DNA of 64,000 nt from Zeimonas arvi (GTDB lineage: Bacteria > Pseudomonadota > Gammaproteobacteria > Burkholderiales > Burkholderiaceae_E): positions 310,001 to 374,000 of the forward strand of contig NZ_VDUY01000001.1 in assembly GCF_008039575.1 (NCBI RefSeq), written 5' to 3'. The translations under genes and the position numbers were made by a program. Each line of letters starts with the position of its first letter. The stretch's first letter is position 1. The notes under the pieces were generated by a model that was given only the letters and a program-made list of their open reading frames with translations, did not search any database and was not told the DNA's origin. Shown here piece by piece: positions 23,086-37,391 of this stretch.

Positions 23086-23931
23086 ATGCGCCGTCGTCGT
23101 CTCCTCGCCTCGCTCGCGCTCCTGGCCGCCGCCTCGGTTCTCGCCACCCGGATGGGCCTGCTCTCCGGAAAGCGCCCCGCCGGCCTCGGCCCTGTCGACG
23201 GCCGGCTGGCGCCGGTGCGCGAGCAACTCTGGAACTCGGTCAGCAGCTTCGCCAGCAGTGACTACCACCGGATCGCGCCGTTGGCCGCGGGGCCGGCACC
23301 GCGTGCGGCCTTCGCCCGGCTCGAAGCGCTCGTGACTGCCGATCCGGCCGCGGCCATCGTCGAGCGCCGGCCCGGCTACCTGTACGCCGAGTACACCAGC
23401 CGCTGGCTGCGCTTCGTGGACGACGTCGAATTCTTGCTCGACGAGGGAGCAGGCGTCATCCATGTACGATCGGCCTCCCGGCTCGGCCGCAAGGACTTCG
23501 GCGTGAATCGCGCCCGGATCGAGACGATTCGCGCAAGGCTCCAATCCGAACTCAGCAAACCACAAGGAATCGACACGATGAGCTACACCACCACCCCCTC
23601 CGGCCTGCAGTTCAACGACACCGTGGTCGGCAGCGGCGATGAGGCCCGCGCCGGCGACCGCGTCAGCGTCCACTACACCGGCTGGCTCTACGAGAACGGC
23701 CAGGCTGGCGCCAAGTTCGACTCCAGCAAGGACCGCGGTCAGCCCTTCGTGTTCCCGCTGGGCGCCGGCCATGTGATCCGCGGCTGGGACGAAGGCGTGC
23801 AGGGCATGAAGGTGGGCGGCACCCGGATGCTGGTGATCCCGGCCGACCTGGGCTATGGCGCGCGCGGCGCGGGCGGGGTGATTCCGCCGAACGCCACCTT
23901 GTTGTTCGAGGTGGAGCTGCTGGGGGTCTGA
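23086..23931 (+). CDS. DUF1499 domain fused to FKBP-type peptidyl-prolyl isomerase
   Basis: A 281-aa two-domain protein. Residues 1-20 (MRRRRLLASLALLAAASVLA) are a signal peptide or anchor. About 45-155 match the DUF1499 pattern, ending in 'RFVDDVEFLLD', 'VRSASRLGRKDFGVNRARIE'. From residue 165, MSYTTTPSGLQFNDTVVG begins a complete FKBP domain (VHYTGWLYENG, AGHVIRGWDEGVQGMKVGG, LGYGARGAGGVIPPNATLLF). The FKBP part starts with an ATG at 23578 preceded by AAGGA 9 nt upstream, so a 117-aa stand-alone FKBP could also be made from the same message. Linked domains in one frame are unusual; in relatives FKBP of this type is normally a separate cytosolic protein. Confidence 0.85.
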   Translation: MRRRRLLASLALLAAASVLATRMGLLSGKRPAGLGPVDGRLAPVREQLWNSVSSFASSDYHRIAPLAAGPAPRAAFARLEALVTADPAAAIVERRPGYLYAEYTSRWLRFVDDVEFLLDEGAGVIHVRSASRLGRKDFGVNRARIETIRARLQSELSKPQGIDTMSYTTTPSGLQFNDTVVGSGDEARAGDRVSVHYTGWLYENGQAGAKFDSSKDRGQPFVFPLGAGHVIRGWDEGVQGMKVGGTRMLVIPADLGYGARGAGGVIPPNATLLFEVELLGV

Positions 23932-23938
23932 GGGCGGG

Positions 23939-25333
23939 TCAGAAGCTGTACCGATACTCGGCCCACAGTCGGTCGCTGTTGTCGAAGCGGCCGAACAGCC
24001 CCAGCGGGTTGCCGGCGAAGACGTCCACGCCAGCCCGGATCCGGCGATTCGCGTCAGGCTTCCAGGTGAGCATCGCGCGCAGCAGGCGATCGCTGCGATT
24101 CAGACTGGTGATGCCGAGGAACTCGGCATCGAGCCGACCGGTGAGGGCATGCGCGACCAGGAGGCTCATGCCGTTCTCGCGTCGATCCGTCCCCGTGGCC
24201 GCATCGTGGTCGAGGAAGGCCCGCTGGTAGAACTGCGCGTTGACGCGCCAGTCGTCGGCGGGCGTGAAGTCCAGGCTGGCCGCCCAGTCGATCGTGTCGA
24301 GCTCGGCCAGCCCGCTGCCGGCATCGAGCGGGAGCAGCCCGAACTTGCGGCCGCTGGTGTGGACGATCTCGGCCTTGGCCACGATGCCGTCGAAATCCTT
24401 GGACACCGTGCCACCGATCCGCGTGACCTTGTCGTAGCGGGCCTGGTAGACCACGGACTGCGGATCGGCCGGCGTGGCGCCGGGCACCAGCGAGCGATTG
24501 AAGGCCGCCTGGGTGTCGGGCGCCCGATAGACGAACGCGGTCAGGTCCCAGCCGCTGACCAGGGTGGACACCCGCGCGCCGATGCCCGAGTTCGACAGTC
24601 GGCGCGACGGCCGCTCATCGCCCAGGATGCTGTAGCCGTAACCCTGGTACTGCGGCGGCCATGGAAAGAACTCGGCACCGGGCTCTCCGATGCGATCCAC
24701 CTCGGGGGCCGGCAGCCAGACAAGCTCCAGGTGCGTGTCGTCGCCGAACCACTCGGCGCGCGCCGCCCATTGAGGAATCCGGATCTGCTCGAACTCGGGC
24801 AACACGAAACTGCGCAGGTCCTTTGCCGACACCACGTCGGCGAAGAAGAGCCCGACCATCTCGCCCCACACGATGTTCTGCTTGCCCAGCCGGAACTCCC
24901 AGCTGCCGGCGCCGAAGTCCACGTAAGCCTCGCGCAGGCGCAGTTCGGCCCGCTGGTCGCGGCGCACGCCGGGCAGGTAGTGGTCCGAGATGCCGTAGGC
25001 GGCATCGAGGCTCGCCTGCGCGGAGAGCTTCCATTTGGCGCCGTTCTCCCAGGCGCCACGGCCCGCGAGTTCGGCCATGGTGCGCAGGTTCTGGAAATGA
25101 CCGGGAGACTGCCAGCCATAGGCTGCGTCGACCTGCAACCAGCCGTTCCAGCGGGTGGGCTCGGCAGGCTTGAAGCCGAGGCCGGCCGGGCTCGCGGTCG
25201 AGACGCCGGTTTTCGTTGCGGTCTGCGCCTGTACGGATGGTAAGACGAAGGCCGACGGGATCGCGGTAGCCATCGCCCATGCCAGCATGAGTATCGCGCC
25301 GCGGGCAGTCCTCGGAGTGCGTTCGGGAATCAT
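23939..25333 (-). CDS. DUF1302-like outer-membrane beta-barrel protein
   Basis: Protein of 464 aa with a signal peptide ending near residue 36 (...FVLPSVQA | QTATKT). The mature part is built of alternating amphipathic strands, for example 'WNGWLQVDAAYGW', 'AELRLREAYVDF', 'SWEFRLGKQNIVWGE', and ends in 'LWAEYRYSF', an outer-membrane barrel signature with C-terminal phenylalanine. The 'GKQNIVWGE' patch is typical of DUF1302 proteins. Its ATG overlaps the stop of the ABC ATPase by 4 bp, so the two are coupled. It probably forms the outer-membrane end of the exporter. Family assignment is moderate, barrel nature is strong. Confidence 0.75.
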   Translation of the reverse strand: MIPERTPRTARGAILMLAWAMATAIPSAFVLPSVQAQTATKTGVSTASPAGLGFKPAEPTRWNGWLQVDAAYGWQSPGHFQNLRTMAELAGRGAWENGAKWKLSAQASLDAAYGISDHYLPGVRRDQRAELRLREAYVDFGAGSWEFRLGKQNIVWGEMVGLFFADVVSAKDLRSFVLPEFEQIRIPQWAARAEWFGDDTHLELVWLPAPEVDRIGEPGAEFFPWPPQYQGYGYSILGDERPSRRLSNSGIGARVSTLVSGWDLTAFVYRAPDTQAAFNRSLVPGATPADPQSVVYQARYDKVTRIGGTVSKDFDGIVAKAEIVHTSGRKFGLLPLDAGSGLAELDTIDWAASLDFTPADDWRVNAQFYQRAFLDHDAATGTDRRENGMSLLVAHALTGRLDAEFLGITSLNRSDRLLRAMLTWKPDANRRIRAGVDVFAGNPLGLFGRFDNSDRLWAEYRYSF

Positions 25334-26079
25334 CGTTCCAGGGCTTCCATGGATGCGTCTGCATCGGCCTTGACCATCACCCAGCGGGATTGCTGCCTGA
25401 CGCCCAGCCCGATGATGCGGCCGTCCTCGATGCGAACCAGGCGATCGGCGGCCGCCATCACGCTCTCGTCGTGCGTAGAGAACACGAAGGTGGTCCGGTA
25501 CTTCTGGTTGATGGCCTTCATCAGTCGAAGGATCTCGCCGCCGGTCTGATGATCGAGATTCGCGGTCGGTTCGTCGGCCAGCACGATGCGCGGCTTGACC
25601 GCGAGCGCTCGCGCGATCGCCACCCGCTGGCGCTGGCCGCCCGACAGCTGGTTGGGGCGGTGGCCGGCGAACTTCGAGAGCCCCACCAGGTCCAGGAAGC
25701 GGGCGACGCGCTCCCGCCGCTCCTTCTTTCCCAGCTCGGGAAACTGCAGCAACGGATACTCGACGTTCTCCCAGGCAGTCAACACCGGGAACAGGTTGAA
25801 GGTCTGGAAGATGAAGCCGACCGTGCGCGCGCGATAGTCGGCGAGCTGGTCTGGCGTCCGGCCGCTGACGTCCCGGCCGTCGATGACGATGCGACCCGAG
25901 TCCGCGGTATCGATGCAGCCGATCAGGTTCAGCAAGGTAGACTTGCCGCTTCCAGAGGGGCCGGCAATCGCGAGAAACACGCCCTCGTCGATGCGCAGGC
26001 TGACGTCGCGCAGCGCGTGCACCGTCTGACCGCCGAGCCGGTATTGCCTCGAGACGTTTTCGAGCATGACGAGAGCCAT
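25330..26079 (-). CDS. ABC transporter ATP-binding protein (LolD/MacB-type)
   Basis: ATPase of about 249 aa of the MacB/LolD/FtsE class. Walker A is GPSGSGKST (about 40-48), the Q-loop 'FIFQTFNLFPVLTAWENV', the ABC signature LSGGQRQRVAIARAL, Walker B 'RIVLADEPT' and the H-loop in 'FVFSTHDESV'. All catalytic residues are intact. An ATG at 26067 (MLENVS) is an alternative start. It needs FtsX-type permeases; the only candidates are the two genes at 32999-35481 on the same strand, about 7 kb upstream and separated by opposite-strand genes. It is followed directly by the barrel gene (ATGA overlap). Confidence 0.93.
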   Translation of the reverse strand: MALVMLENVSRQYRLGGQTVHALRDVSLRIDEGVFLAIAGPSGSGKSTLLNLIGCIDTADSGRIVIDGRDVSGRTPDQLADYRARTVGFIFQTFNLFPVLTAWENVEYPLLQFPELGKKERRERVARFLDLVGLSKFAGHRPNQLSGGQRQRVAIARALAVKPRIVLADEPTANLDHQTGGEILRLMKAINQKYRTTFVFSTHDESVMAAADRLVRIEDGRIIGLGVRQQSRWVMVKADADASMEALER

Positions 26080-26113
26080 GCCTGAATGTAACCGATCAGA
26101 ACCGGGTGCCGCC

Positions 26114-26983
26114 ATGGCCAGACCCTTCGTTCCCCTCCGACTGTTCGTTCCCGTCGGGCCCTTCGCGCCTCGCCGCCTGCCCGTTCGCCACCGAGCCTGC
26201 GTTGCGCTGCTGCTGGCCGCGGCGCTCGCGCTGCCGTCGACGCCAAGCGCGCAGGATGTCGGGCAGACCGCAGACAGCGCGGCTCCGGCGGCTGCCGAGG
26301 ACGCCGACACGCAACGCGCCCGCGAGATCGTGGCCCGCGCCGACGAAGTCCGCTTTCCGAAGGGCGGATTCCAGGTCGACATCCGCGTGAGCTCGACGAC
26401 CGGCGGCGAAGCCCAGGAGCCGCGCCTGTACCGGGTGCTCTCCAAGGGCAACGAGAACACGATCATCCAGACCGTGGAGCCCGTCGTGGAACGGGGCCAG
26501 AACCTGCTGATGCGCGGGCGCGAGCTCTGGATCTACATGCCCACCGTGTCGCAACCGGTGCGCCTGTCGCTGTCGCAGCGGCTCACCGGCCAGGTGGCGA
26601 ACGGGGACCTGGCGCGGGCCAATTTCTCGGGCGACTACACGCCTACGATCCTGCGCACCGAGAAGATCGGCGGCCACGATCATCACGTGCTGGAACTGAA
26701 GGCCGCCGAGCGCGGCGTGACCTATCCGAAGGTCCTCTACTGGGTGAGGGCCGACAACGGACATCCACACAAGGCGGAGTTTTACGCACTCTCAGGCAGG
26801 CTGCTGAAGACCTGCGTATACGAGGACTTCCGGGAGCTGGGCGGTCAGGTCCGGCCCACCAGGCTGGTGATGACCGACGCGCTGAAACCCGGCGACGTGT
26901 CAGTACTCGAGTATTCCGACCTCGAACGACGGAACTTGCCCGATCGCATGTTCACGAAGGACTACATGAAGCGGTTGGAGTAG
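26114..26983 (+). CDS. Periplasmic LolA-like (outer-membrane lipoprotein-sorting) protein
   Basis: Periplasmic protein of 289 aa. A long basic N-terminus precedes a hydrophobic signal stretch (VALLLAAALALPSTPSAQ, cleavage near residue 48). The mature region has the LolA/LolB-like half-barrel pattern of the outer-membrane lipoprotein-sorting family: 'VDIRVSSTTGG', 'NLLMRGRELWIYMPTVSQPV', 'GDYTPTILRTEKIGGHDHHV', 'VTYPKVLYWV', 'RPTRLVMTDAL'. Such proteins shuttle lipidated cargo across the periplasm for MacB/RND-type transporters. It is divergent from the ABC ATPase with only 34 bp between starts, so the two promoters must overlap the coding ends. It is the first forward gene of the cassette. 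Confidence 0.82.
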   Translation: MARPFVPLRLFVPVGPFAPRRLPVRHRACVALLLAAALALPSTPSAQDVGQTADSAAPAAAEDADTQRAREIVARADEVRFPKGGFQVDIRVSSTTGGEAQEPRLYRVLSKGNENTIIQTVEPVVERGQNLLMRGRELWIYMPTVSQPVRLSLSQRLTGQVANGDLARANFSGDYTPTILRTEKIGGHDHHVLELKAAERGVTYPKVLYWVRADNGHPHKAEFYALSGRLLKTCVYEDFRELGGQVRPTRLVMTDALKPGDVSVLEYSDLERRNLPDRMFTKDYMKRLE

Positions 26984-27184
26984 GGCAAGCCCGGACCGAC
27001 ACGCGGATTCCAGCGCACGCGAGCAGGGGACGTTCCGATTCTTCAGGAATTGCCATCGAATTGCCCGAATATATCCCGCCGCCCGTCACAGACGGCGGAG
27101 GCATCGCGGCTAGACTTCGGCAACTGGGGAATTTCGCAACAACGTGTTCCCTTCTCGCTTGACATTTTTAGAAGAAGCAGAGCC

Positions 27185-28030
27185 TTGTATCAAGCAGCAC
27201 CCCTCTCTGCGTTCCTGTCGGCGACCTGCCAGGAAAAGCACCCCCCCCCGGCTCTCGACCCCCAGTTCAATTGTCCCCGCCACGCCGCGAACGACGCCGA
27301 CGGCCAGTCGCTCGCCGCCCGCTCCTTGCTGACGGCATCGCTGCTGCGGGACGTCTCCCCATCCAGGCTGAGCATCCGCGTCGCCGACACCGTCGGCCAG
27401 CGCCGCGAGGCCAGTGTTCTGGTCAGCAAGATGTATGGCTGGCGGGGTTACAGGACCGAGGGCGCGGAAACCACTGCCCGCCCTGAAGTGAGGAGCGCAC
27501 GCAACGATGCGTCGCCCACGGGCGTGACCCTGATCGCTTTCCTCGGTCAGCGGCTGGTCGGCACCTTGACCGTCGGCGTCGATTCGCCGGCTGGCCTTGC
27601 GTGCAGCGAGCTCTACCCGGACGAAGTGGCGCGCCTGCGGGCTGAGGGCGCGCGCATTTGCGAATTCACCCGGCTGGCGGTGGACGGCGCCGAGCACTCC
27701 ACGCAACTGCTCGCCATGATGTTCCATGTGGCGTTCATCTATGCTCGGCAGTTGCGCGGCGGCACGGACCTGCTGGTCGAAGTGAACCCGAGGCACGCCG
27801 CCTTCTACAGGCGAATGCTCGACTTTTCGCAGCTGGGGCCGGAACGAGTCTGCTCGCGCGTGAATGCGCCGGCGGTGCTGCTCGGGCTGAAGCTCGAGCA
27901 CGCGGAGCAGCAAATTGCCCGGTTCGGCGGGCACGACGAGATCGCCCGGGGCGTGCGTTCGCTCTACCCGCTGGGGTTCCGCCCAGAAGAAATCGCGCGG
28001 ATAGCCAGCCGTCTGGGCGCGGCGGCCTGA
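27185..28030 (+). CDS. FeeM-like N-acyl amino acid synthase, paralog 1
   Basis: Putative N-acyltransferase of the FeeM / PEP-CTERM-associated acyl amino acid synthase family (GNAT/autoinducer-synthase fold), which joins an acyl-ACP acyl chain to an amino acid. Shared motifs: SKMYGWRGY (about residue 80), LYPDEVARLRAEGARICEF (about 140-160), MMFHVAFIYARQ, LLVEVNPRHAAFY (about 197-209), RVNAPAVLLGL and RSLYPLGF. The start is uncertain: TTG at 27185 gives 281 aa with an AGAAG upstream; the frame is open to 27050. It has a 24-residue insertion after the YGWRGY motif (RTEGAETT...) absent from its two neighbours. Acyl donor and amino acid are unknown. Confidence 0.78.
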   Translation: MYQAAPLSAFLSATCQEKHPPPALDPQFNCPRHAANDADGQSLAARSLLTASLLRDVSPSRLSIRVADTVGQRREASVLVSKMYGWRGYRTEGAETTARPEVRSARNDASPTGVTLIAFLGQRLVGTLTVGVDSPAGLACSELYPDEVARLRAEGARICEFTRLAVDGAEHSTQLLAMMFHVAFIYARQLRGGTDLLVEVNPRHAAFYRRMLDFSQLGPERVCSRVNAPAVLLGLKLEHAEQQIARFGGHDEIARGVRSLYPLGFRPEEIARIASRLGAAA

Positions 28031-28217
28031 CAGCTCGGGCCGGCGGCCATCCGTGCCGCCGAAGCGCCCATCCATCCGGATCCGCGTGTCCTGCCCGGGC
28101 GTCCTGCGTAACTTCACCTTGCACCCCGCCTGCGACGGATTTGCGCAGGGGTTCCTTGACGCAAGGTCTAGCGAAGTGAGCGATCTGTCAATGTTGACTG
28201 CCGAAGGAGCCTTGCCC

Positions 28218-28988
28218 ATGTTGGCGCAGGCTGCCGAGGATCCTTGGCCTGACACCATCGTGAACGTGCGCGAGGATGAAGGCGTCCTTCGGGCATCTCT
28301 TCCGGAATCCGTGCTCGCAGAAGATTTCTCGGCAATGCGGAAGTTCGTGGACACGCCGGGTCGCTTCCGCATCCGGCTCGCGAACGACGAAGGGCGCCGC
28401 AGCCTGGCCAGCTACCTGGTCAGCAAGCGCTACGGCTGGCGCGGCTACACGGCCGGCCCGATCCGTATGACGCCGGACCAGATCACGCTGATCGCCTCGG
28501 ACGACGAGCGCGCGCTGGCAACGATTTCCGTCGGCTTCGACCGCGACGCCGGTCTTCTTGCGGACTCGCTCTATCCCGACGAAGTGGCCGGACTCCGCGC
28601 CCAGGGCGCGAGGCTGTGCGAGTTCACGAAGCTTGCGGTCGAGCCCGGCAAGCATTCGCAGGAAGTCCTGGCGATGCTGTTTCACATCGCCTACATCTAC
28701 GCGCGACGGATAAACCGGTGCACCGAGCTCCTCATCGAGGTCAACCCCCGCCATGTGCGCTTCTACGAGTCTGCCCTGGGTTTCGAGCGGCTAGGCCCGC
28801 AGAGGATCTGCCCTCGCGTCGACGCACCTGCGGTGCTGCTCAGGCTGGACCTGTCCCATTGCGAGCAAGAACTGGCCCGGGTCGGGGGTCACCGCAAGAT
28901 GGCGGGTCGAATCCGTTCCCTGTACCCGCTGGGGTTCTCCCCGCGGGAAGAGGAAGGCATCCATGCGCGGCTCTTCCAGCTAGGCTGA
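28218..28988 (+). CDS. FeeM-like N-acyl amino acid synthase, paralog 2
   Basis: Second of three tandem paralogs, 256 aa. The ATG at 28218 is chosen because GAAGGAG precedes it by 8 nt and because the length then equals that of paralog 3. Motifs match the other copies: SKRYGWRGY (about 68), LYPDEVAGLRAQGARLCEF (about 118-136), MLFHIAYIYARR, LLIEVNPRHVRFY (about 171-183), RVDAPAVLLRL and RSLYPLGF. The first 45 residues are unlike those of the others. A 187-bp gap before it contains no recognisable gene. Predicted cytosolic. Sequence spread among copies suggests different substrates rather than recent duplication. Confidence 0.82.
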   Translation: MLAQAAEDPWPDTIVNVREDEGVLRASLPESVLAEDFSAMRKFVDTPGRFRIRLANDEGRRSLASYLVSKRYGWRGYTAGPIRMTPDQITLIASDDERALATISVGFDRDAGLLADSLYPDEVAGLRAQGARLCEFTKLAVEPGKHSQEVLAMLFHIAYIYARRINRCTELLIEVNPRHVRFYESALGFERLGPQRICPRVDAPAVLLRLDLSHCEQELARVGGHRKMAGRIRSLYPLGFSPREEEGIHARLFQLG

Positions 28989-29133
28989 CGCAAGGCCAGT
29001 ATCGCCCCTGAGTTCATCTTATCGTTGGCAGATTCAAGCATTGAAGTCAACGGCAAAAGTGCGATAGCCTGCTGACTTCGCCGCAAACACGTCCGTTCGG
29101 TTTCGGCATTGTTGTATTTAGGGAACGAAACCA

Positions 29134-29907
29134 TTGGACAACGACAGCCTGGCGCCCGTTCTTTCCGGAAGCCGCGACAGCGGCCGCCCGCTCCGGCGCG
29201 ACCCGGGCTCTTCCGAACGCGTGCTCGCAGATTCGGGTGCTGAGCCTTTGGTCGAAATCCCGGCAAAGGACGACTCTCGCCTCACCATCAGGCTGGCCGA
29301 CGACAACGGCCGGCGTAATCAGGCGAGCTATTTGCTGCACAAGCGGTACGGGTGGCGCGGCTATACGACCGCGCAGCTTCCTGACGATCCGAACTGCGTC
29401 ACGCTGGTCGCGCTCGATGACGCCGCGGCGGTGGCAACCCTGACGATCGGGTTCGACTCGCCGGCCGGGATGAGCGCATGCGAGTTGTACCCCGACGAGG
29501 TCTCCAGGCTGCGCGAAACAGGCGCCCGTCTGTGCGAATTCACGCGCTTCGCGGTCGATCGATCGGACCGGTCGCTCGAGTTGCTCGCGATGATGTTCCA
29601 CGTTGCCTATTTGCTGGCGCGGCGGCAACGCGGCGCCACACATGTCCTTGCCGAAGTGAACCCGCGCCATCTGCACTTCTACACTCGGATGCTCGATTTC
29701 CAGCAGATCGGCCCGGAACGGACCTGCCCCAGGGTGAACGCGCCGGCGGTACTCTTGTCACTATCGCTGGAATTCGGTGAGCGGCAGATCGCTCGATATG
29801 GGGGCAAACGAGAGCTGGCGCGAAAGATTCGCTCGTTGTATCCGCTCTCGTTCTCCACGGCCGAGGAAGCCGGCATCGCCGAGCGGCTGCTACGCGCCCG
29901 TCCCTGA
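29134..29907 (+). CDS. FeeM-like N-acyl amino acid synthase, paralog 3
   Basis: Third tandem paralog, 257 aa, starting at a TTG (29134) with AGGGAA 9 nt upstream. Motifs: HKRYGWRGY (about 69), LYPDEVSRLRETGARLCEF (about 118-136), MMFHVAYLLARR, VLAEVNPRHLHFY (about 172-184), RVNAPAVLLSL and RSLYPLSF. The 145-bp gap before it is noticeably A/T-rich for this window and may hold a promoter. Its stop lies 50 bp before the E1-like gene, so those two are probably cotranscribed. As for its siblings, the family role is N-acylation of an amino acid; the substrate is not known. Confidence 0.82.
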   Translation: MDNDSLAPVLSGSRDSGRPLRRDPGSSERVLADSGAEPLVEIPAKDDSRLTIRLADDNGRRNQASYLLHKRYGWRGYTTAQLPDDPNCVTLVALDDAAAVATLTIGFDSPAGMSACELYPDEVSRLRETGARLCEFTRFAVDRSDRSLELLAMMFHVAYLLARRQRGATHVLAEVNPRHLHFYTRMLDFQQIGPERTCPRVNAPAVLLSLSLEFGERQIARYGGKRELARKIRSLYPLSFSTAEEAGIAERLLRARP

Positions 29908-29957
29908 GGCCGCGACCCCCGCACAGGGCCCCCGATTTCCGCTTTTCGATGTAGAGA

Positions 29958-30824
29958 ATGTTCGACTACCAAGGCGCCTTCGCGCGCAATATCGGCTGGC
30001 TGCGCGAAGACGAGCAGCAGGTCCTGCGCAGCAAGCGCGTGGCCATCGCCGGCATGGGCGGCGTAGGCGGCGTGCATCTTCTGACCCTGGCCCGGCTCGG
30101 CATCGGCCGGTTCAACATCGCCGATCTGGACAACTTCGAGCTGGCCAACTTCAACCGACAGGCGGGGGCATCCATGTCCACGCTCGGGCGCCCCAAGGTG
30201 GAGGTCATGGCGGAAGCAGCGCGGGAGATCAACCCCGAGCTGGAGCTGGGGATCTTCCGGGACGGCGTCAACGAGTCGAATCTCGACGCCTTTTTCGACG
30301 GCGTCGACGTCTACGTGGACGGGCTGGATTTCTTCTCCTTCGACATTCGCGAGCGCGTGTTCGCCTACTGCGCCGAAAAGGGCATTCCCGCAGTCACGGT
30401 GGCGCCGTTGGGCATGAGCGCAGCCCTGTTGAACTTCCTGCCGGGAGAAATGACTTTCGAGGAGTATTTTCAGGTCGCGGGCCGGCCCGACCTGGAGAAG
30501 GCAGTGCGCTTTCTGGTCGGCCTGGCGCCGGCATTGCAGCACCGGCACTACTTGGCCGACAAGACCCGGGTGAGCCTCGAAAGCGGCGCGGGGCCCTCCA
30601 CGGTGATGGCCTGCCAGCTCTGCGCCGGGGTCGCCGGCATCGAAGTGCTCAAGCTTCTGCTGGGCCGCGGAAAAGTCTGGGCCGCGCCGCACGGCATCCA
30701 GTACGACGGCTATCGCAACAAACTGGCCCACACCTGGCGGCCGGGCGGCAACCGGAATCCGCTCAATCGGCTGGCGATCGCGATTGCGATGCGGCAGCTG
30801 GGGCTCGGGCACCGCCGCGGGTGA
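29958..30824 (+). CDS. ThiF/E1-like adenylyltransferase
   Basis: E1-superfamily protein of 288 aa. The nucleotide-binding GMGGVGG is at about 32-38, followed by the family signature 'DLDNFELANFNRQ' (about 56-68) with the arginine finger, 'GRPKVEVMAE', and the acidic pair in 'VDVYVDGLDFF'. E1-like enzymes adenylate a C-terminal or free carboxylate using ATP. Only one CxxC (CQLC, about 218-221) is present, so the four-cysteine zinc site of MoeB/ThiF is incomplete. No ubiquitin-like or ThiS/MoaD partner is encoded nearby, which suggests a small-molecule or peptide carboxylate as substrate. Followed 7 bp later by the nitroreductase. Confidence 0.85.
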   Translation: MFDYQGAFARNIGWLREDEQQVLRSKRVAIAGMGGVGGVHLLTLARLGIGRFNIADLDNFELANFNRQAGASMSTLGRPKVEVMAEAAREINPELELGIFRDGVNESNLDAFFDGVDVYVDGLDFFSFDIRERVFAYCAEKGIPAVTVAPLGMSAALLNFLPGEMTFEEYFQVAGRPDLEKAVRFLVGLAPALQHRHYLADKTRVSLESGAGPSTVMACQLCAGVAGIEVLKLLLGRGKVWAAPHGIQYDGYRNKLAHTWRPGGNRNPLNRLAIAIAMRQLGLGHRRG

Positions 30825-30831
30825 AGGCACG

Positions 30832-31893
30832 ATGGGCCGACTGACCAACGAGCAACTCGAGTTCGTCCTGCAGAGCGCGATTCTTGCGCCTTCGGCCGAC
30901 AATCTACACCGTTTGCGGTTCAAGTGCGAGGGCGACGCACTGTCGATCCTGTCGAGCGAGCAGGGGCTGCCCCGCCAAGTTAGCTACCGTCTCGTCCTCG
31001 ACCTGCTTTCGCTCGGCGCGGTCGTGGAGAACATTGCGACCGCCGCAGGTCGCTTCGGATTTGGAGCAGCGGCGTCCTTGCTGCCCGAACCGTCCAGTCC
31101 GCGTTTGCTCACACGAATCCGTTTCGAACAACAGGATTCCGCCCGGAATTCCACGCCACTCTGGCCGGCAATCGCCCTGCGGCATACGAACCGCAGTCTG
31201 CGCTTCCGAGGTCCTGCCTTGTCCGGCGACGAGCGCGCGCGCCTGGATCGTGCGATAGAGTGCTTTCCAGACTGCAGCCTTGAATGGCTCGACCAGCCCC
31301 AGCGCCGACGCTCGGTCCTGGACCTGATACACCGCGCGGAGTCCGAACGATTCCGGAACCGCTTACTGCACCAGGAGATGTTCTCGTCGATCCGCTTCGA
31401 GGCGGGGTGGCGATCCAGCACCACCGAAGGTCTTCCCCCAGGAGCCCTCGGCATAGAGCCCCCGTTGCGGCCCTTCTTCAGGATGCTTCGGCACTGGCCA
31501 ATCCTCCGGGCGGCGAACGCCTTGGGCGCGCACCGCATGCTCGGCTTTCGCGCCGCCGCACTCCCGAGCCGGATAGCGCCGGATCTGGCCCTGCTCGCTG
31601 TCAAGTCGCTCGACAACGGGCCGCTCTTCGACGCCGGGAGAGTATTGCAGCGTACTTGGCTCGGCCTGACACAGATGGGACGCGTCGCGCAGCCACTGCC
31701 CGCCGCTGCCCTCTACGCCCTCCCAAGCGCTTCCCACGACGGAATTCCGCATCACCTGCAGTTGCACTTGGCCAACCGCTGGAAGCACGAGCTTCCGAAT
31801 GCTATTCCAGTGATGGCGCTACGAATCGGGCGGGCCAGGACGCCTCGCGTCGTCGCGGGGCGCCCTCCTGTCGACCACTTCCGCATCGACTGA
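30832..31893 (+). CDS. Acg-type nitroreductase-family flavoprotein
   Basis: Protein of 353 aa with nitroreductase-like halves. 'QSAILAPSADNLHRLRF' near residue 15 matches the FMN-binding 'APS..N.Qpw' entry of the fold, 'LRHTNRSLRFRGPAL' near 120 matches the Acg subgroup's RhTnR segment, and 'WLGLTQMGRVAQPL' near 285 resembles its C-terminal FMN-contact region. The ATG at 30832 has GAAGG 6 nt upstream and follows the E1-like stop by 7 bp, so the pair is coupled. In peptide-modifying systems flavoproteins of this fold act as dehydrogenases after an E1-like partner; here that is only an analogy. Confidence 0.75.
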   Translation: MGRLTNEQLEFVLQSAILAPSADNLHRLRFKCEGDALSILSSEQGLPRQVSYRLVLDLLSLGAVVENIATAAGRFGFGAAASLLPEPSSPRLLTRIRFEQQDSARNSTPLWPAIALRHTNRSLRFRGPALSGDERARLDRAIECFPDCSLEWLDQPQRRRSVLDLIHRAESERFRNRLLHQEMFSSIRFEAGWRSSTTEGLPPGALGIEPPLRPFFRMLRHWPILRAANALGAHRMLGFRAAALPSRIAPDLALLAVKSLDNGPLFDAGRVLQRTWLGLTQMGRVAQPLPAAALYALPSASHDGIPHHLQLHLANRWKHELPNAIPVMALRIGRARTPRVVAGRPPVDHFRID

Positions 31894-32002
31894 CGTCGTG
31901 CGTCGCGGCACGGCACTTCGCGCTGTCGAATTTCTTTACACTGAGATTCTTGGCCTTTCCGGCGGACAAAAAATTCTCTTTTAAAACAGAGCTTTGCTCA
32001 TC

Positions 32003-32018
32003 TGGCATGTCAATTGCT
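32003..32018 (+). promoter_or_regulatory. Sigma-54 (RpoN) promoter for the PEP-CTERM gene
   Basis: The bases TGGCATGTCAATTGCT match the sigma-54 consensus TGGCACGNNNNTTGCT at all but one fixed position, with the obligatory 10 nt between the GG and GC elements. Transcription would begin near 32029, giving a leader of about 40 nt before the ATG at 32071. In other bacteria PEP-CTERM genes are known to depend on RpoN with the PrsK/PrsR pair, which supports the call. The 177-bp gap (31894-32070) is also far more A/T-rich than its surroundings. Confidence 0.7.
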
Positions 32019-32070
32019 TATACCCGAGCGCTACATGGCATTGTGGCCTCATGAAAACAAGGAGTATCAG

Positions 32071-32883
32071 ATGAAGCTCAAAGCATTGGTTGCGGCCTTG
32101 GGGCTGAGCACGGTTGCCGTGGCAGCACAAGGGGCCGTGCTGCAGCAGTTCACGGTGGAGGAAAGCGCCATTTCTGGCACTCCTTCGAATCAGGTCACTG
32201 CGGATCAGATCACCATCCGTTACGAGGCCTCGATCGTCCAGGTGCTGGATGCCGGTACGGGAGTCACCTCCTTCACGGAAACGGGCTGGTTTGACGCCAC
32301 CGGGCTGGTTCTGGGAAATACTGCCCAGTCTAGTTACCTGAACTCCCCCGAAGCCAGCGGCTACGGGATGTATGGCCTCTTTTCGGTGAGCGGCACGATC
32401 AGTTTCGTCGGCACCACCGCGCTGGCCACGTTCACAAGCGGCAGCGTTGCCCTCTATGCAGACCCCACGCAGGACACTGTGCTCTCTGTGGTCGCAGGCG
32501 GCACGCCGAGTGTTAACGACGTTTCGGGCAATGACGGCATCCTTGCTTCGTCCAGCCAAGTGCTCGGGGGCTCGCAAGCCAACGTGCCTCTCGTTGGCAA
32601 CCAGGCAGCGTCCGGCGGATCGTATGTGATCAACTACGGTGATCTGCTGCTCTCCGCCCTCGGTGAGAGCTACTTCATCGATCCGATCAACTTCTACCTC
32701 AACGTCGTTGTGACTGGCGAGAACGAGAGTTTTACGCCCGTGCTCACCGCCGGCAACTACACCGGCCTTGCGCAAGGCGATGGCTCCGCTGGTTTCTACA
32801 GCGTGCCTGAACCTGCCAGCATGACCCTTCTGGGGCTTGGCCTTCTGGGCCTCGGCGCCACGGTGCGGCGCCGGCGCGGTTAA
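32071..32883 (+). CDS. PEP-CTERM sorting-domain protein
   Basis: Exported protein of 270 aa. Signal peptide MKLKALVAALGLSTVAVAAQG, then a Ser/Thr/Gly/Ala-rich beta-type region with few charges, and at the C-terminus VPEPASMTLLGLGLLGLG followed by ATVRRRRG. That is a textbook PEP-CTERM tripartite signal: VPEP, hydrophobic helix, Arg cluster. An exosortase would cleave it and pass it to the surface. No exosortase gene is in the window. AAGGAG stands 5 nt before the ATG, so translation should be strong. Composition is clearly less GC-rich than that of flanking genes. Function of the mature region is unknown. Confidence 0.93.
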   Translation: MKLKALVAALGLSTVAVAAQGAVLQQFTVEESAISGTPSNQVTADQITIRYEASIVQVLDAGTGVTSFTETGWFDATGLVLGNTAQSSYLNSPEASGYGMYGLFSVSGTISFVGTTALATFTSGSVALYADPTQDTVLSVVAGGTPSVNDVSGNDGILASSSQVLGGSQANVPLVGNQAASGGSYVINYGDLLLSALGESYFIDPINFYLNVVVTGENESFTPVLTAGNYTGLAQGDGSAGFYSVPEPASMTLLGLGLLGLGATVRRRRG

Positions 32884-32942
32884 GACGCGCTACGGCCGCC
32901 TGTCGGCGATCACGCAACGGCAGGCGGCTCGCCTGACGAAAG

Positions 32943-32968
32943 AAGCTCCCTCGGGAGCTTTTTTTGTT
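32943..32968 (+). terminator. Rho-independent terminator after the PEP-CTERM gene
   Basis: An 8-bp stem (AAGCTCCC at 32943-32950 with GGGAGCTT at 32953-32960) is followed by a T-run through 32965. On the minus strand the same hairpin is followed by a shorter TTCTTT, so it may also end the permease transcript arriving from the other side. Confidence 0.88.
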
Positions 32969-32998
32969 TCCAGGACCTACATTTCGGAATCTCAAACC

Positions 32999-34225
32999 TC
33001 AAACCCGTTTGCCCAATGCATAAACAATGGGTAATCGTGCCGCCCGGAACGAAGGTAGGCATCCCCCGATCACCGAGGAAGCGACACCCACTCCCGCCGC
33101 ACCGAGCAACGCTACAGGCGACAAGAGCACTCTCGCCGTGAATCCCGCCTCAGCATTCGGCGGCGGCGGCATCGGGATGCCTATCCAGGAGATCAGCATT
33201 CCGGCAACGATGGCTACGGCCACCCCGAGCAAGGCGCCCGCGAACCCAAGAGCGGCGGACTCGAGTGCGAGCAGCTTCACCACGGTGCGCGATTCCGCGC
33301 CGAGCGCGCGCATCGTGCCGAACTCGGCAGTGCGCTCGAACACCGTGATGTTGGTGCTCGTCAGTACGCTCATCGCGATGAGCACCAGGGCAATGAGCCG
33401 GAGGATCCCGAACTGGCGGGCATACAGCTCCCGAGTGCTTGCGTAGAAGTCGGACAGGATGTACCAGGGCTGCAGGTCGAGGCCCCGGAGCTGCGAGCGT
33501 CCGACCAGATCGGCCAGCACCGCGCCGGTATCGTCGGTTCGGCGCAGGTGGATCACGATTGTGTTGACGCCGGCTACCTGGACCAACTCCTGCGCGTCGG
33601 CGAGCGGAATCCTGATGGTGCGATCGTCGAATTCCTTCGAGAAGGTCCGGAAGACGCCCGCCACCTCGAGTTCCACCGCGTTCATCGACCCGTCGACCGT
33701 GGCGCTGGTCAGCGTGACGTAGTCGCCGCGGCGCACGCCCAGGTGTCGGGCAACTCCTTCGCCGAGCAGGGCGGCATGCGCTCCGCCTCGATCCAGGCCG
33801 ACACCGTCCAGCAGCGTCAAGTAGGTGCCGTCGACCGCTTCGGGCGTCGGCTCGACGCCTTCCACCTCGACCGGCAACTCGCGGTTCTCGACATTGATCA
33901 CGCCCGAAACCTGAAGCCTCCCGGCCACCGACTCGATGCGGGAATCGCCTCGCAATGCGCTGCGTATCGCCTCGGTTCGCTCGATGACGAACGCTTCCGG
34001 CCGGCCAGCTCCGCTCTCCCTGAATCCCGGCCGGGCGACCTGGAGGTGGCCGAGCTGCCCCCTGACAGTCGCCTCGCCGAGTTGGAAGAAGACGTCGCGG
34101 ATGAAGCCATCCGCCAGGGCAAGCCCGGCAACCCCGAACACGATGGCCGCCAGCGCGAAGGCGCTGTGCCGCACCTGGCGCATGAGGTTCCGCAAGGCGA
34201 TCCGTAGGAGTGCGTTGAAAGGCAT
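32999..34225 (-). CDS. ABC transporter permease, FtsX/MacB type (second permease)
   Basis: Inner-membrane permease of 408 aa: TM1 near the N-terminus (HSAFALAAIVFGVAGLALA), a large periplasmic domain (about 50-265), then three C-terminal membrane segments with the FtsX pattern 'ITVFERTAEFGTMRALGAESRTVV'. A proline-rich loop WIGIPMPPPP lies between TM2-3 and TM4 and is shared with the neighbouring permease. It starts 41 bp after that gene and is thus cotranscribed. It requires an ATPase, most likely the gene at 25330-26079. Confidence 0.9.
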   Translation of the reverse strand: MPFNALLRIALRNLMRQVRHSAFALAAIVFGVAGLALADGFIRDVFFQLGEATVRGQLGHLQVARPGFRESGAGRPEAFVIERTEAIRSALRGDSRIESVAGRLQVSGVINVENRELPVEVEGVEPTPEAVDGTYLTLLDGVGLDRGGAHAALLGEGVARHLGVRRGDYVTLTSATVDGSMNAVELEVAGVFRTFSKEFDDRTIRIPLADAQELVQVAGVNTIVIHLRRTDDTGAVLADLVGRSQLRGLDLQPWYILSDFYASTRELYARQFGILRLIALVLIAMSVLTSTNITVFERTAEFGTMRALGAESRTVVKLLALESAALGFAGALLGVAVAIVAGMLISWIGIPMPPPPNAEAGFTARVLLSPVALLGAAGVGVASSVIGGCLPSFRAARLPIVYALGKRV

Positions 34226-34266
34226 CTGGGCAGGTTTGCGGTAGCGGGGACCGACGGGGAAGGGAT

Positions 34267-35481
34267 TCAGCGATCGGCGCGCAATGCGTCGACGATATTC
34301 GCCCGCGACGCACGCAGCGCCGGCAACAGTGCCGCGATCACGCAGATCGCCACGATGGACAGGAATGCCAACGAAGCGGTAGCGAGCGAGAAGCTGACCC
34401 CCCCGACGAAACCGTGCGCGTTGCCGGGTGGCGGCGGCATCGGAATGCCGATCCAGGTCACCGCTCGGGCAATCGCCCCACCGACGACGACACCGACAAG
34501 GCCACCGACCACGCCCATCGCCAGTGCCTCGGCGACGAACTTTCCGGCGACGGTCGCGCGCCGCGCCCCCAGTGCCATCATGGTCCCGATCTCGCGCTGC
34601 TGCTCGAGCACGTTTCGCGCCATGGCGTTGGAGGCCGCGAGCAGCACGATCGCGAGGATCACCGTGCGCACGAAGCTCAACTGGCGGCTGAAAAGGTCGA
34701 CCGTCTTGTTGTAGAAGTCAGCGAGTTCGCTCCAGACCTTGACCTGCACGCCCTCGCCCGTCAGTACCTCGCGCAGGCGCAGCGCAGTCGCGGCAGCGGC
34801 GTCGGTATCGGAGAGCAGGATCATCAGCCTGGAGACTCCGCTGCTGCGAGTGAGTTGCTGCGCGGCTGCGATCGACAATCGCAGCGCCCGATCGTCATAG
34901 GCCTTCGTCGCGGTGTGAAACAAACCGACGACGACAGCTTCGATGGCATTGACGCCTCCACCGCGAACGTTCGTCAACAGCGTAATACGATCGCCGACGC
35001 TCGCGCCGATGCTGCGGGCGAGCCCCTCGCCAAGCAAAACTTCGTTCCCGCTTCCTGTTATCTGCGAACCGGAACTGAGCCTGACGGCCTTCGAGAGCGC
35101 CACCTCCTTGTCCGGCTCGACGCCCTCGCCGACAAATCCGACGGTACGTTCACCGAAGGACACCAGGCCGGCAAAGGACAGGCGTGCGGCCACGACCGCG
35201 CCCGGATCAGACGCGAGTTCCCGCTCCAACAAGCTCCTGGTGTCGCCACCGCGCGCCTCCGTGCCGATTCGCCCGTCGGCCTCCGCGGGTAGCACTTGAA
35301 TATGCGCGAAGTGCGCACGAATGATGTCCTCGCGGAAGACGAACATCGTCCGGTCTATGAAACCGTCGGCGAGGATCAGCGCAATCGTTCCCAAGGCCAC
35401 GGTCAGGCATACCATCAGCACACGCTGAGGCTCGCGCAGGAAGGCCAAGGCCATCCGGAGTCTCGTGAGGTATCGATCCAT
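34267..35481 (-). CDS. ABC transporter permease, FtsX/MacB type (first permease)
   Basis: Inner-membrane permease of 404 aa, paralogous to the next gene: TM1 'VLMVCLTVALGTIALILA', periplasmic domain about 45-260, then C-terminal segments with 'NVLEQQREIGTMMALGARRATV', the FtsX-family cytoplasmic loop, and the WIGIPMPPPP loop. Two different permeases plus one ATPase match the LolCDE layout. First gene of the reverse-strand exporter; its start lies 128 bp from the divergent glnS start, so the shared gap should hold both promoters. Confidence 0.9.
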   Translation of the reverse strand: MDRYLTRLRMALAFLREPQRVLMVCLTVALGTIALILADGFIDRTMFVFREDIIRAHFAHIQVLPAEADGRIGTEARGGDTRSLLERELASDPGAVVAARLSFAGLVSFGERTVGFVGEGVEPDKEVALSKAVRLSSGSQITGSGNEVLLGEGLARSIGASVGDRITLLTNVRGGGVNAIEAVVVGLFHTATKAYDDRALRLSIAAAQQLTRSSGVSRLMILLSDTDAAAATALRLREVLTGEGVQVKVWSELADFYNKTVDLFSRQLSFVRTVILAIVLLAASNAMARNVLEQQREIGTMMALGARRATVAGKFVAEALAMGVVGGLVGVVVGGAIARAVTWIGIPMPPPPGNAHGFVGGVSFSLATASLAFLSIVAICVIAALLPALRASRANIVDALRADR

Positions 35482-35609
35482 GACCTTCGTCGGTTGTCCG
35501 GTCGAAGGTTACTCCAGCCGGATTGCAAGAGGTGCACGCGCGCTCCCGATGCGGCATTTCGTACAATGCAAGGTTCGCGACCAAACCGATCCGCCCGCCG
35601 ACCTCCACG

Positions 35610-37387
<1,778 letters not shown>

Positions 37388-37391
<4 letters not shown>

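Follow-up and report, generated by a model that had tools for sequence, protein, structure and literature searches.

N-Acyl amino acid synthases (NAS) co-encoded with a ThiF-like cyclase and a flavin-dependent oxidase have been described as oxzAB in Pseudoalteromonas rubra and as tyzABC and trzAS in mycobacteria (PMC10404671, PMC12856293). In Mycobacterium tuberculosis, TyzA was reported to acylate Tyr or Phe, the ThiF protein TyzB to cyclise the product with ATP, and TyzC, an Acg-like member of the nitroreductase superfamily, to desaturate it with O2 to an acyl-tyrazolone; OxzA and OxzB of Pseudoalteromonas act likewise (PMC10404671), and tryptazolones are the products of TrzA and TrzS (PMC12856293). 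Acid and alcohol break oxazolones down (PMC12856293). By comparative genomics, the combination of NAS, ThiF and nitroreductase has been assigned to thalassotalic, kyonggic and stieleriacine lipids (PMC12479983). The authors of the tyrazolone study wrote that what becomes of the lipid within the cell was yet to be determined (PMC10404671). Here we analysed a stretch of 64,000 nucleotides of Zeimonas arvi (positions 310,001 to 374,000 of contig NZ_VDUY01000001.1), hereafter the window, in which an island of eleven genes (23939-35481) combines such enzymes with a Lol-like exporter and a PepA-type PEP-CTERM protein. We think that this island is real and conserved as a make-and-export unit and that the exporter link, not the biosynthesis, is its new part. 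Probably, lipids of the N-acyl amino acid type reach the outer membrane or the matrix by a Lol-like route that is made of a Type VII ATP-binding cassette (ABC) complex, a LolA-like carrier and a barrel and is connected with PEP-CTERM proteins.

The biosynthetic trio is a member of the known kind and not a new one. The same three enzyme families make up the thalassotalic, kyonggic and stieleriacine clusters (NasY, ThiF and nitroreductase), which come from Pseudomonadota producers and hold one, three or four NAS genes per region. The window differs from oxz, tyz and trz in having three synthases, separate genes for the ThiF protein and the flavoprotein, a Lol-like exporter and PepA. The only nearby transporter gene named for tyz is mmpL9 (PMC10404671), and the main text of the NasY-cluster paper, unlike the window, has no mention of an exporter or a PEP-CTERM gene (PMC12479983). 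No published link between a Lol-like exporter and an NAS was found in the literature, as represented by the best-ranked papers, with subscription journals mostly outside. The first-pass annotation of this DNA had put the gene set forward as a possible new system; this agrees with the literature searched as regards the exporter link but not as regards the biosynthetic trio, already described for acyl-oxazolones and N-acyl dehydrotyrosine.

On the transport side, the island has FtsX-fold permeases, a LolD-like ATPase and a LolA-fold carrier in common with LolCDE-LolA. It differs by its DUF1302-like barrel, by a carrier of the PF17131 branch and by the scores of its ATPase, which lies below the cut-offs of its nearest NCBIfam models MacB, LolD and DarD (206 of the 307.75 bits required for LolD), and of its permeases (83 bits for permease a and 70 bits for permease b with the LolC/E model, cut-off 362.45). 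No LolB was noticed at the locus. YbbAP-TesA, a Type VII ABC system, likewise associates an FtsX-fold permease with a LolD-like ATPase, and the data on it suggest that hydrophobic molecules are extracted by this type of transporter (PMC12646458). The monoterpene efflux system AmeABCD of Castellaniella also comprises a LolA-superfamily periplasmic protein and a DUF1302 outer membrane protein and deals with hydrophobic small molecules; it is energised by a resistance-nodulation-division pump, whereas the window set would be energised by an FtsX-type ABC complex (PMC6394551).

The link between exporter and synthase was observed across genomes with a profile built from nine exporter-type LolA proteins. 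In a set of 121 genomes (the window's own genome and 120 relatives), it detected such a protein in 13, with scores from 347 bits upwards and a wide gap to the next match at 183 bits. All 13 had an over-cut-off FeeM-family gene on the same contig within about 12.5 kb, compared with none of the 19 other LolA-like matches (Fisher p = 3e-9, relatedness being ignored here and in the other association tests; the negative test covered PF21926 only, and short contigs may hide neighbours). At the level of whole genomes, FeeM (PF21926) was over cut-off in 48 (13/13 exporter genomes vs 35/108 others, p = 2e-6), the ThiF model NF006077 in 15 (7/13 vs 8/108, p = 1e-4) and PepA (NF033554) in 6. The 13 exporter genomes span 8 genera.

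A class-wide sample (14 of 369 genomes positive, with scores of at least 337 bits) added 13 new genomes in 9 further genera. This brought the total to 26 exporter genomes in 17 genera, with G000 counted once and with L059 and L145, which appear to be the same contig, counted once as G422. In a phylum sample, 2 of 398 genomes were positive, both already counted, and no exporter was shown outside the class; the class and phylum listings covered matches with E up to 1e-60. The fetched locus contained an NAS and/or ThiF in 25 of the 26 genomes (NAS in 20, ThiF in 17) and a complete exporter in 23; contig ends truncate L112 and L114, which miss some exporter genes, and no barrel was recognised in G433. 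The scanned regions measured 6.5-20 kb (31.5 kb for the window), and the home-built component profiles derive from these same loci. An NAS is encoded by all 26 genomes, including G396, which has neither NAS nor ThiF in the locus: its TIGR03694 gene is on another contig, and its congener G141 has one in the locus. All 10 class-sample ThiF proteins, checked singly, exceeded the NF006077 cut-off, and the FeeM protein of G211 had 81 bits by the Pfam model and scored weakly with the home-built profile. No component was over threshold in any of 20 control regions of 20 kb, which were hand-picked rather than random; they represent 14 of the 26 genomes, and one of them (L158) is next to its exporter region. 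Chance clustering was therefore rejected, given the 0/19 and 0/20 counts and the fact that related loci keep the same set together. The idea that exporter and biosynthetic genes might never co-occur, which would have spoken against the grouping proposed in the first-pass annotation, was thus not borne out.

Conversely, 14 of 44 ThiF loci held a strong exporter match (L036, L037, L040, L041, L046, L052, L058, L059, L067, L070-L073 and L075; several on short contigs). L061 and L079, with weaker exporter matches, were left out of this count.

The synthase that accompanies the exporter varies. In L113, L114, L115 and L116, which lack ThiF, the exporter neighbour is the exosortase-associated synthase TIGR03694 (199-239 bits, cut-off 112), also over cut-off in L138, L140, L142, L146 and L147 (243-259 bits). 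The neighbour is a FeeM protein in the ThiF-less relatives G001 and G016, as in the window, whose three FeeM proteins gave no match to TIGR03694 up to E = 0.1. Two kinds of NAS therefore share one exporter and, as the exporter stays constant when the synthase changes, the cargo class would be N-acyl amino acids generally, not oxazolones only.

In the window, the set forms an 11.6-kb insert between FKBP and glnS. These two genes stand together without an island in 10 of the 18 genomes of the genus, their matches overlapping or at most 215 bases apart in eight and about 1.1 and 2.4 kb apart in two; at the nearest empty site (G003), the flanking proteins are 86-96% identical, with 215 bases between the matches. 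An island is present at the site in five genomes (G000, G001, G009, G016 and G017), with both flanks visible only in G000 and G016. The G016 island contains the exporter and two FeeM genes, without ThiF, flavoprotein or PepA; in G009, an FKBP-FeeM-barrel series runs to the contig end, with no exporter-type LolA match. G007 and G012 are cut by contig ends, and G015 has no FKBP match. The FKBP-glnS junction is a variable site in the genus, filled by differing NAS/exporter islands in 5 of 18 genomes. Since the island is present or absent as one at this site, its gain or loss appears to affect exporter and synthase jointly.

The guanine-plus-cytosine (GC) content of positions 23939-35481 is 0.652, compared with 0.694 and 0.702 in the flanking 10 kb. 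This lower GC and the clean empty site suggest a moving island, on which the synthases could simply ride along with an exporter that runs in reverse or does housekeeping work (lipid uptake from the outer membrane, membrane asymmetry); LolA- and LolB-fold proteins have varied tasks. We consider this quite unlikely, because the partnership recurs in 17 genera with differing gene orders and because a hitchhiker would hardly be replaced so consistently by an enzyme of the same presumed function (TIGR03694). In addition, the inner membrane is described as the extraction site of LolCDE.

The arrangement of the exporter genes bears on the choice of ATPase for the permeases. They form a single block (FtsX-FtsX-LolA on the opposite strand-ATPase-barrel) with the cassette alongside in L059, L067, L072, L136, L138, L140, L142, L143 and L147, and are contiguous in another order in L037. 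In the window and in L070, L071, L073 and L111, part or all of the cassette separates the LolA gene from the FtsX genes; the window arrangement is the same exporter block opened at one place. The 'split' exporter of the first-pass annotation is accordingly found in the window, but as a local arrangement, many relatives having a contiguous exporter. Its view that the FtsX pair, the single ATPase, LolA and the barrel are one unit agrees with these contiguous loci: since the block is contiguous in relatives, the neighbouring ATPase is the sole candidate in the block for the permeases.

The LolA fold of the carrier was confirmed by PF17131 and by the crystal structure 3buu ('LolA superfamily protein NE2245' of Nitrosomonas europaea), to which the model of the carrier (predicted local distance difference test, pLDDT, 76) is similar with 59% identity and template modelling (TM) scores of 0.70/0.89; its branch differs from classical LolA, and its orthologues are 55-70% identical. 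According to a 2018 paper, the periplasmic function of most such LolA-superfamily structures, 3buu among the examples, is still unknown (PMC6394551). The AlphaFold2 model of the barrel (pLDDT 75) is mostly beta, with AlgE as best Foldseek match (TM 0.54), and barrel orthologues adjoin the same ATPase in related loci. An ordinary Lol system was rejected because of the scores below the LolD and LolC/E cut-offs and because the exporter-type LolA is absent from 108 of the 121 genomes. We think that the exporter would be Lol-like in its working, though by score it is no member of LolCDE.

Mobility by plasmid was also considered: among plasmids, 30 records had a LolA match, all below 60% identity (at most 33.6% among the 15 matches listed) and none covering 80% of the query. 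Distant ATPase-FtsX-LolA_like sets were seen on plasmids of Enterobacter bugandensis, Paraburkholderia ginsengisoli and Aliiroseovarius crassostreae (L205, L206 and L207), the three of the 30 records that were examined. These sets lie in or near ketosynthase, malonyltransferase, cytochrome P450 or phosphopantetheinyl transferase genes, and the LolA_like set is followed by an unnamed protein of 404-480 amino acids. This is a hint that Lol-like exporters of lipid metabolites form a larger class.

As to the cassette, its three FeeM proteins are 54-58% identical among themselves, and all exceed the PF21926 cut-off; the search against the solved FeeM structure 2g0b was made with the third. In the ThiF protein, the Gly-rich loop, R67, K80 and D121/D124, presumed ATP-site residues by comparison with MoeB/ThiF, are kept in at least 95% of 39 sequences, and no Cys is conserved at that level in the same sequences, as expected of an adenylating cyclase. 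Among named models, it matches best with PRK08223 and with the ThiF-nitroreductase proteins PRK14851/14852, whose architecture OxzB and TrzS share. The flavoprotein carries the weakest label, below the curated NCBIfam cut-offs, with no Pfam match and an empty PDB sequence search; the labels of the other genes are solid. The cassette genes are on one strand, the likely start of the flavoprotein being 7 bases past the ThiF stop, and the synthase-ThiF-flavoprotein run is seen again in many of the 44 ThiF loci. A FeeM-type synthase, a ThiF fold with its presumed ATP-site residues and an operon-like gene run are three features that the locus shares with acyl-oxazolone pathways, and the FeeM product is probably activated and oxidised, as the first-pass annotation had supposed, though by a route already known from OxzAB, TyzABC and TrzAS.

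The E1/ThiF fold is common to MoeB, ThiF and UBA enzymes, so that the protein could also be pictured as a true E1 acting on a ubiquitin-like or peptide substrate, with an acyl-peptide or protein conjugate as product. The lack of a conserved Cys and the match to the OxzB/TrzS architecture make this extremely improbable; no ThiS or ubiquitin-like gene was noticed beside ThiF, although no systematic search for one was made. No evidence was found for the acyl-peptide that had been put forward as a possible product. ThiF relatives were also seen elsewhere: one, 63% identical, is on a 9.7-kb contig of Kitasatospora sp. MBT63 (L049; contamination or transfer), and others, about 47% identical, are in AP029178.1 (Bdellovibrio sp. 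HAGR004, 48-kb) and on Nitratidesulfovibrio vulgaris plasmids.

The exporter is also linked to PEP-CTERM proteins, as first supposed from the window alone. The window protein exceeds the PepA cut-off (NF033554), has a PEP-CTERM tail and comes from a genome with an exosortase. PepA or PEP-CTERM matches (E up to 0.001) were found in 59 of the 121 genomes, i.e. in 13/13 exporter genomes vs 46/108 others (p = 4e-5), and a PEP-CTERM gene, counted by a home-made motif rule, was present in 19 of 26 exporter regions vs 2 of 20 control regions. Three of L113, L114, L115 and L116 carry a THxN-family PEP-CTERM protein over its cut-off, and PepA is over cut-off near ThiF in G017 and G042. In L050, L051 and L061 (Azohydromonas, Pseudoduganella and Massilia), an over-cut-off PepA adjoins ThiF, with no exporter-type LolA in the fetched stretch; in L063 (Rheinheimera), the protein at the PepA position scores below the NF033554 cut-off.

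Long-chain NAS were reportedly linked to PEP-CTERM/exosortase systems by Craig, Cherry and Brady in 2011. In Methylomonas LW13, gradient cultures were reported to lose both net growth and their usual band of polysaccharide when an exosortase-associated NAS was disrupted, as they did with two other genes, while planktonic growth was slightly faster (PMC11072679). In an Aquincola rpoN1 mutant, overexpression of a PepA PEP-CTERM protein raised the amount of bound exopolysaccharide and restored floc formation, whereas biofilm and swarming were not rescued (PMC9850573). These phenotypes are compatible with product and protein acting at the surface or in the matrix; they are no test of the exporter.

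As lipoproteins are the cargo of Lol machines, the counts of PEP-CTERM genes can also be read to mean that the machine is a second lipoprotein-sorting route, bringing lipidated PepA or another PEP-CTERM protein to the outer membrane, the N-acyl amino acid being an anchor or a by-product. We regard this as unlikely: synthase/ThiF is the tighter partner (25/26), a PEP-CTERM gene was unseen in 7 of the 26 regions (two of them short contigs), and the three plasmid sets, near ketosynthase-type or P450/phosphopantetheinyl transferase genes, have no PEP-CTERM protein among their annotated neighbours. A variant that we consider very unlikely is that the exported oxazolone serves as an activated acyl donor, the azlactone acylating amines of PepA/PEP-CTERM proteins or of matrix amino sugars and thereby lipid-anchoring them at the surface. 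If true, this would amount to lipid anchoring and lipoprotein-like sorting separate from Lgt/Lsp/Lnt, and would explain the company of NAS, exosortase/PEP-CTERM proteins and a LolA-type carrier.

In the make-and-export scheme that we favour, the FeeM-type synthases would use an activated fatty acid to acylate an amino acid (probably Tyr or Phe), the enzyme class being taken from the sequence and the substrate from homologues. By analogy with OxzAB, TyzABC and TrzAS, the ThiF-like protein would adenylate the carboxylate and close the oxazolone ring. Desaturation by the Acg-type flavoprotein would then yield an acyl-oxazolone or, if this is hydrolysed, an N-acyl 2,3-dehydro-amino acid. The two FtsX permeases and the LolD-like ATPase would together be a Type VII ABC complex and extract the lipid from the inner membrane; the LolA-like protein would ferry it over the periplasm, and the barrel would receive or release it at the outer membrane, as families, fold and conserved co-location suggest. 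The product would finally reach the surface or matrix, also the destination of exosortase-processed PepA, a step suggested by linkage. Cargo, direction and the role of PepA are what we infer here.

Several observations weigh against this scheme. Tyrazolone of M. tuberculosis was reported in cell pellets rather than supernatants (PMC10404671), tryptazolones were commoner inside cells, acyl-tryptophan having accumulated in the medium (PMC12856293), and no oxazolone has been seen in thalassotalic, kyonggic or stieleriacine producers (PMC12479983). Within the set of 121, exporter-type LolA is missing from 8 of the 15 genomes whose ThiF exceeds the cut-off, so that the lipid can be made without the exporter. 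Likewise, 6 of the 13 exporter genomes (one of them 65% complete) have no ThiF above that cut-off, so that oxazolone is not an obligatory cargo. No synthase was present in the fetched region of 6 of the 26 exporter genomes (five of these have ThiF; G396 has neither). The unnamed proteins of L205-L207 match neither the barrel profile nor Pfam, and these sets have one FtsX gene, not two. Finally, gene neighbourhood cannot separate the export of a small lipid from that of a lipidated protein. From the distribution of the genes, the exporter seems to need a synthase, but the converse is not so.

N-Acyl amino acids, acyl-oxazolones and the exosortase link have been known for years. What the Type VII ABC-LolA-barrel set beside the synthases adds is a concrete, deletable exporter, which would address the question of where such lipids go. 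The set also suggests what the protein of the solved structure 3buu may do, and that exporters of lipid metabolites are a broader class to which Lol-type machines belong. Moreover, it connects these lipids with PepA and other PEP-CTERM proteins, which are relevant to flocculation in water treatment.

Table 1. Genes of the island in the Zeimonas arvi window. The starts of the ATPase, LolA, FeeM, flavoprotein and PepA genes are our choice or uncertain.
Feature	Position	Strand	Evidence and remarks
Outer membrane beta-barrel, DUF1302-like	23939..25333	-	PF06980 39 bits, cut-off 23
ABC ATPase, LolD/MacB-type	25330..26079	-	PF00005 E=4e-35
LolA_like periplasmic carrier	26114..26983	+	PF17131 E=5e-48; signal-peptide-like N-terminus judged by eye
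FeeM-type N-acyl amino acid synthase 1	27050..28030	+	PF21926 E=6e-52; real start probably downstream of the open reading frame start
FeeM-type N-acyl amino acid synthase 2	28053..28988	+	PF21926 E=5e-51
Third FeeM-type synthase	29134..29907	+	PF21926 E=2e-51; solved FeeM 2g0b matched, E=9e-7
ThiF/E1-like ATP-dependent cyclase, OxzB/TyzB-type, predicted	29958..30824	+	NF006077/PRK08223 450 bits, cut-off 266
Acg/Rv3131-type flavin-dependent oxidase (nitroreductase superfamily), predicted desaturase	30832..31893	+	NF047509 E=1e-28 and PRK14851 (C-terminal half) E=6e-31, both below cut-off
PepA-type PEP-CTERM surface protein	32014..32883	+	NF033554 ('flocculation-associated' PepA equivalog) 185 bits, cut-off 80; PF07589 tail
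FtsX-type permease b (MacB_PCD + FtsX)	32999..34225	-	PF02687 E=1.5e-16, PF12704 E=1e-13
FtsX-type permease a, LolC/E-like	34267..35481	-	TIGR02212 83 bits, below cut-off; aligned with 21 other family members
Island	23932..35522	.	bounded by FKBP (23086-23931) and glnS (35523-37391)

All the genes named in the first-pass annotation were found again with the same positions and strands (Table 1). RNA scans of the window gave no RNA families and no tRNAs, and promoter and terminator scans gave matches no more numerous than in shuffles. Elsewhere in the window's own genome, neither FeeM nor LolA_like was matched again (E up to 0.001). Its one exosortase is on contig C3, with XrtA-type PEP-CTERM genes around it; the region G000:C3:55001-75000 (L080) contains XrtA/PEP-CTERM exopolysaccharide genes, i.e. 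a glycosyltransferase, an amidotransferase, a polysaccharide deacetylase and an O-glycosylation ligase.

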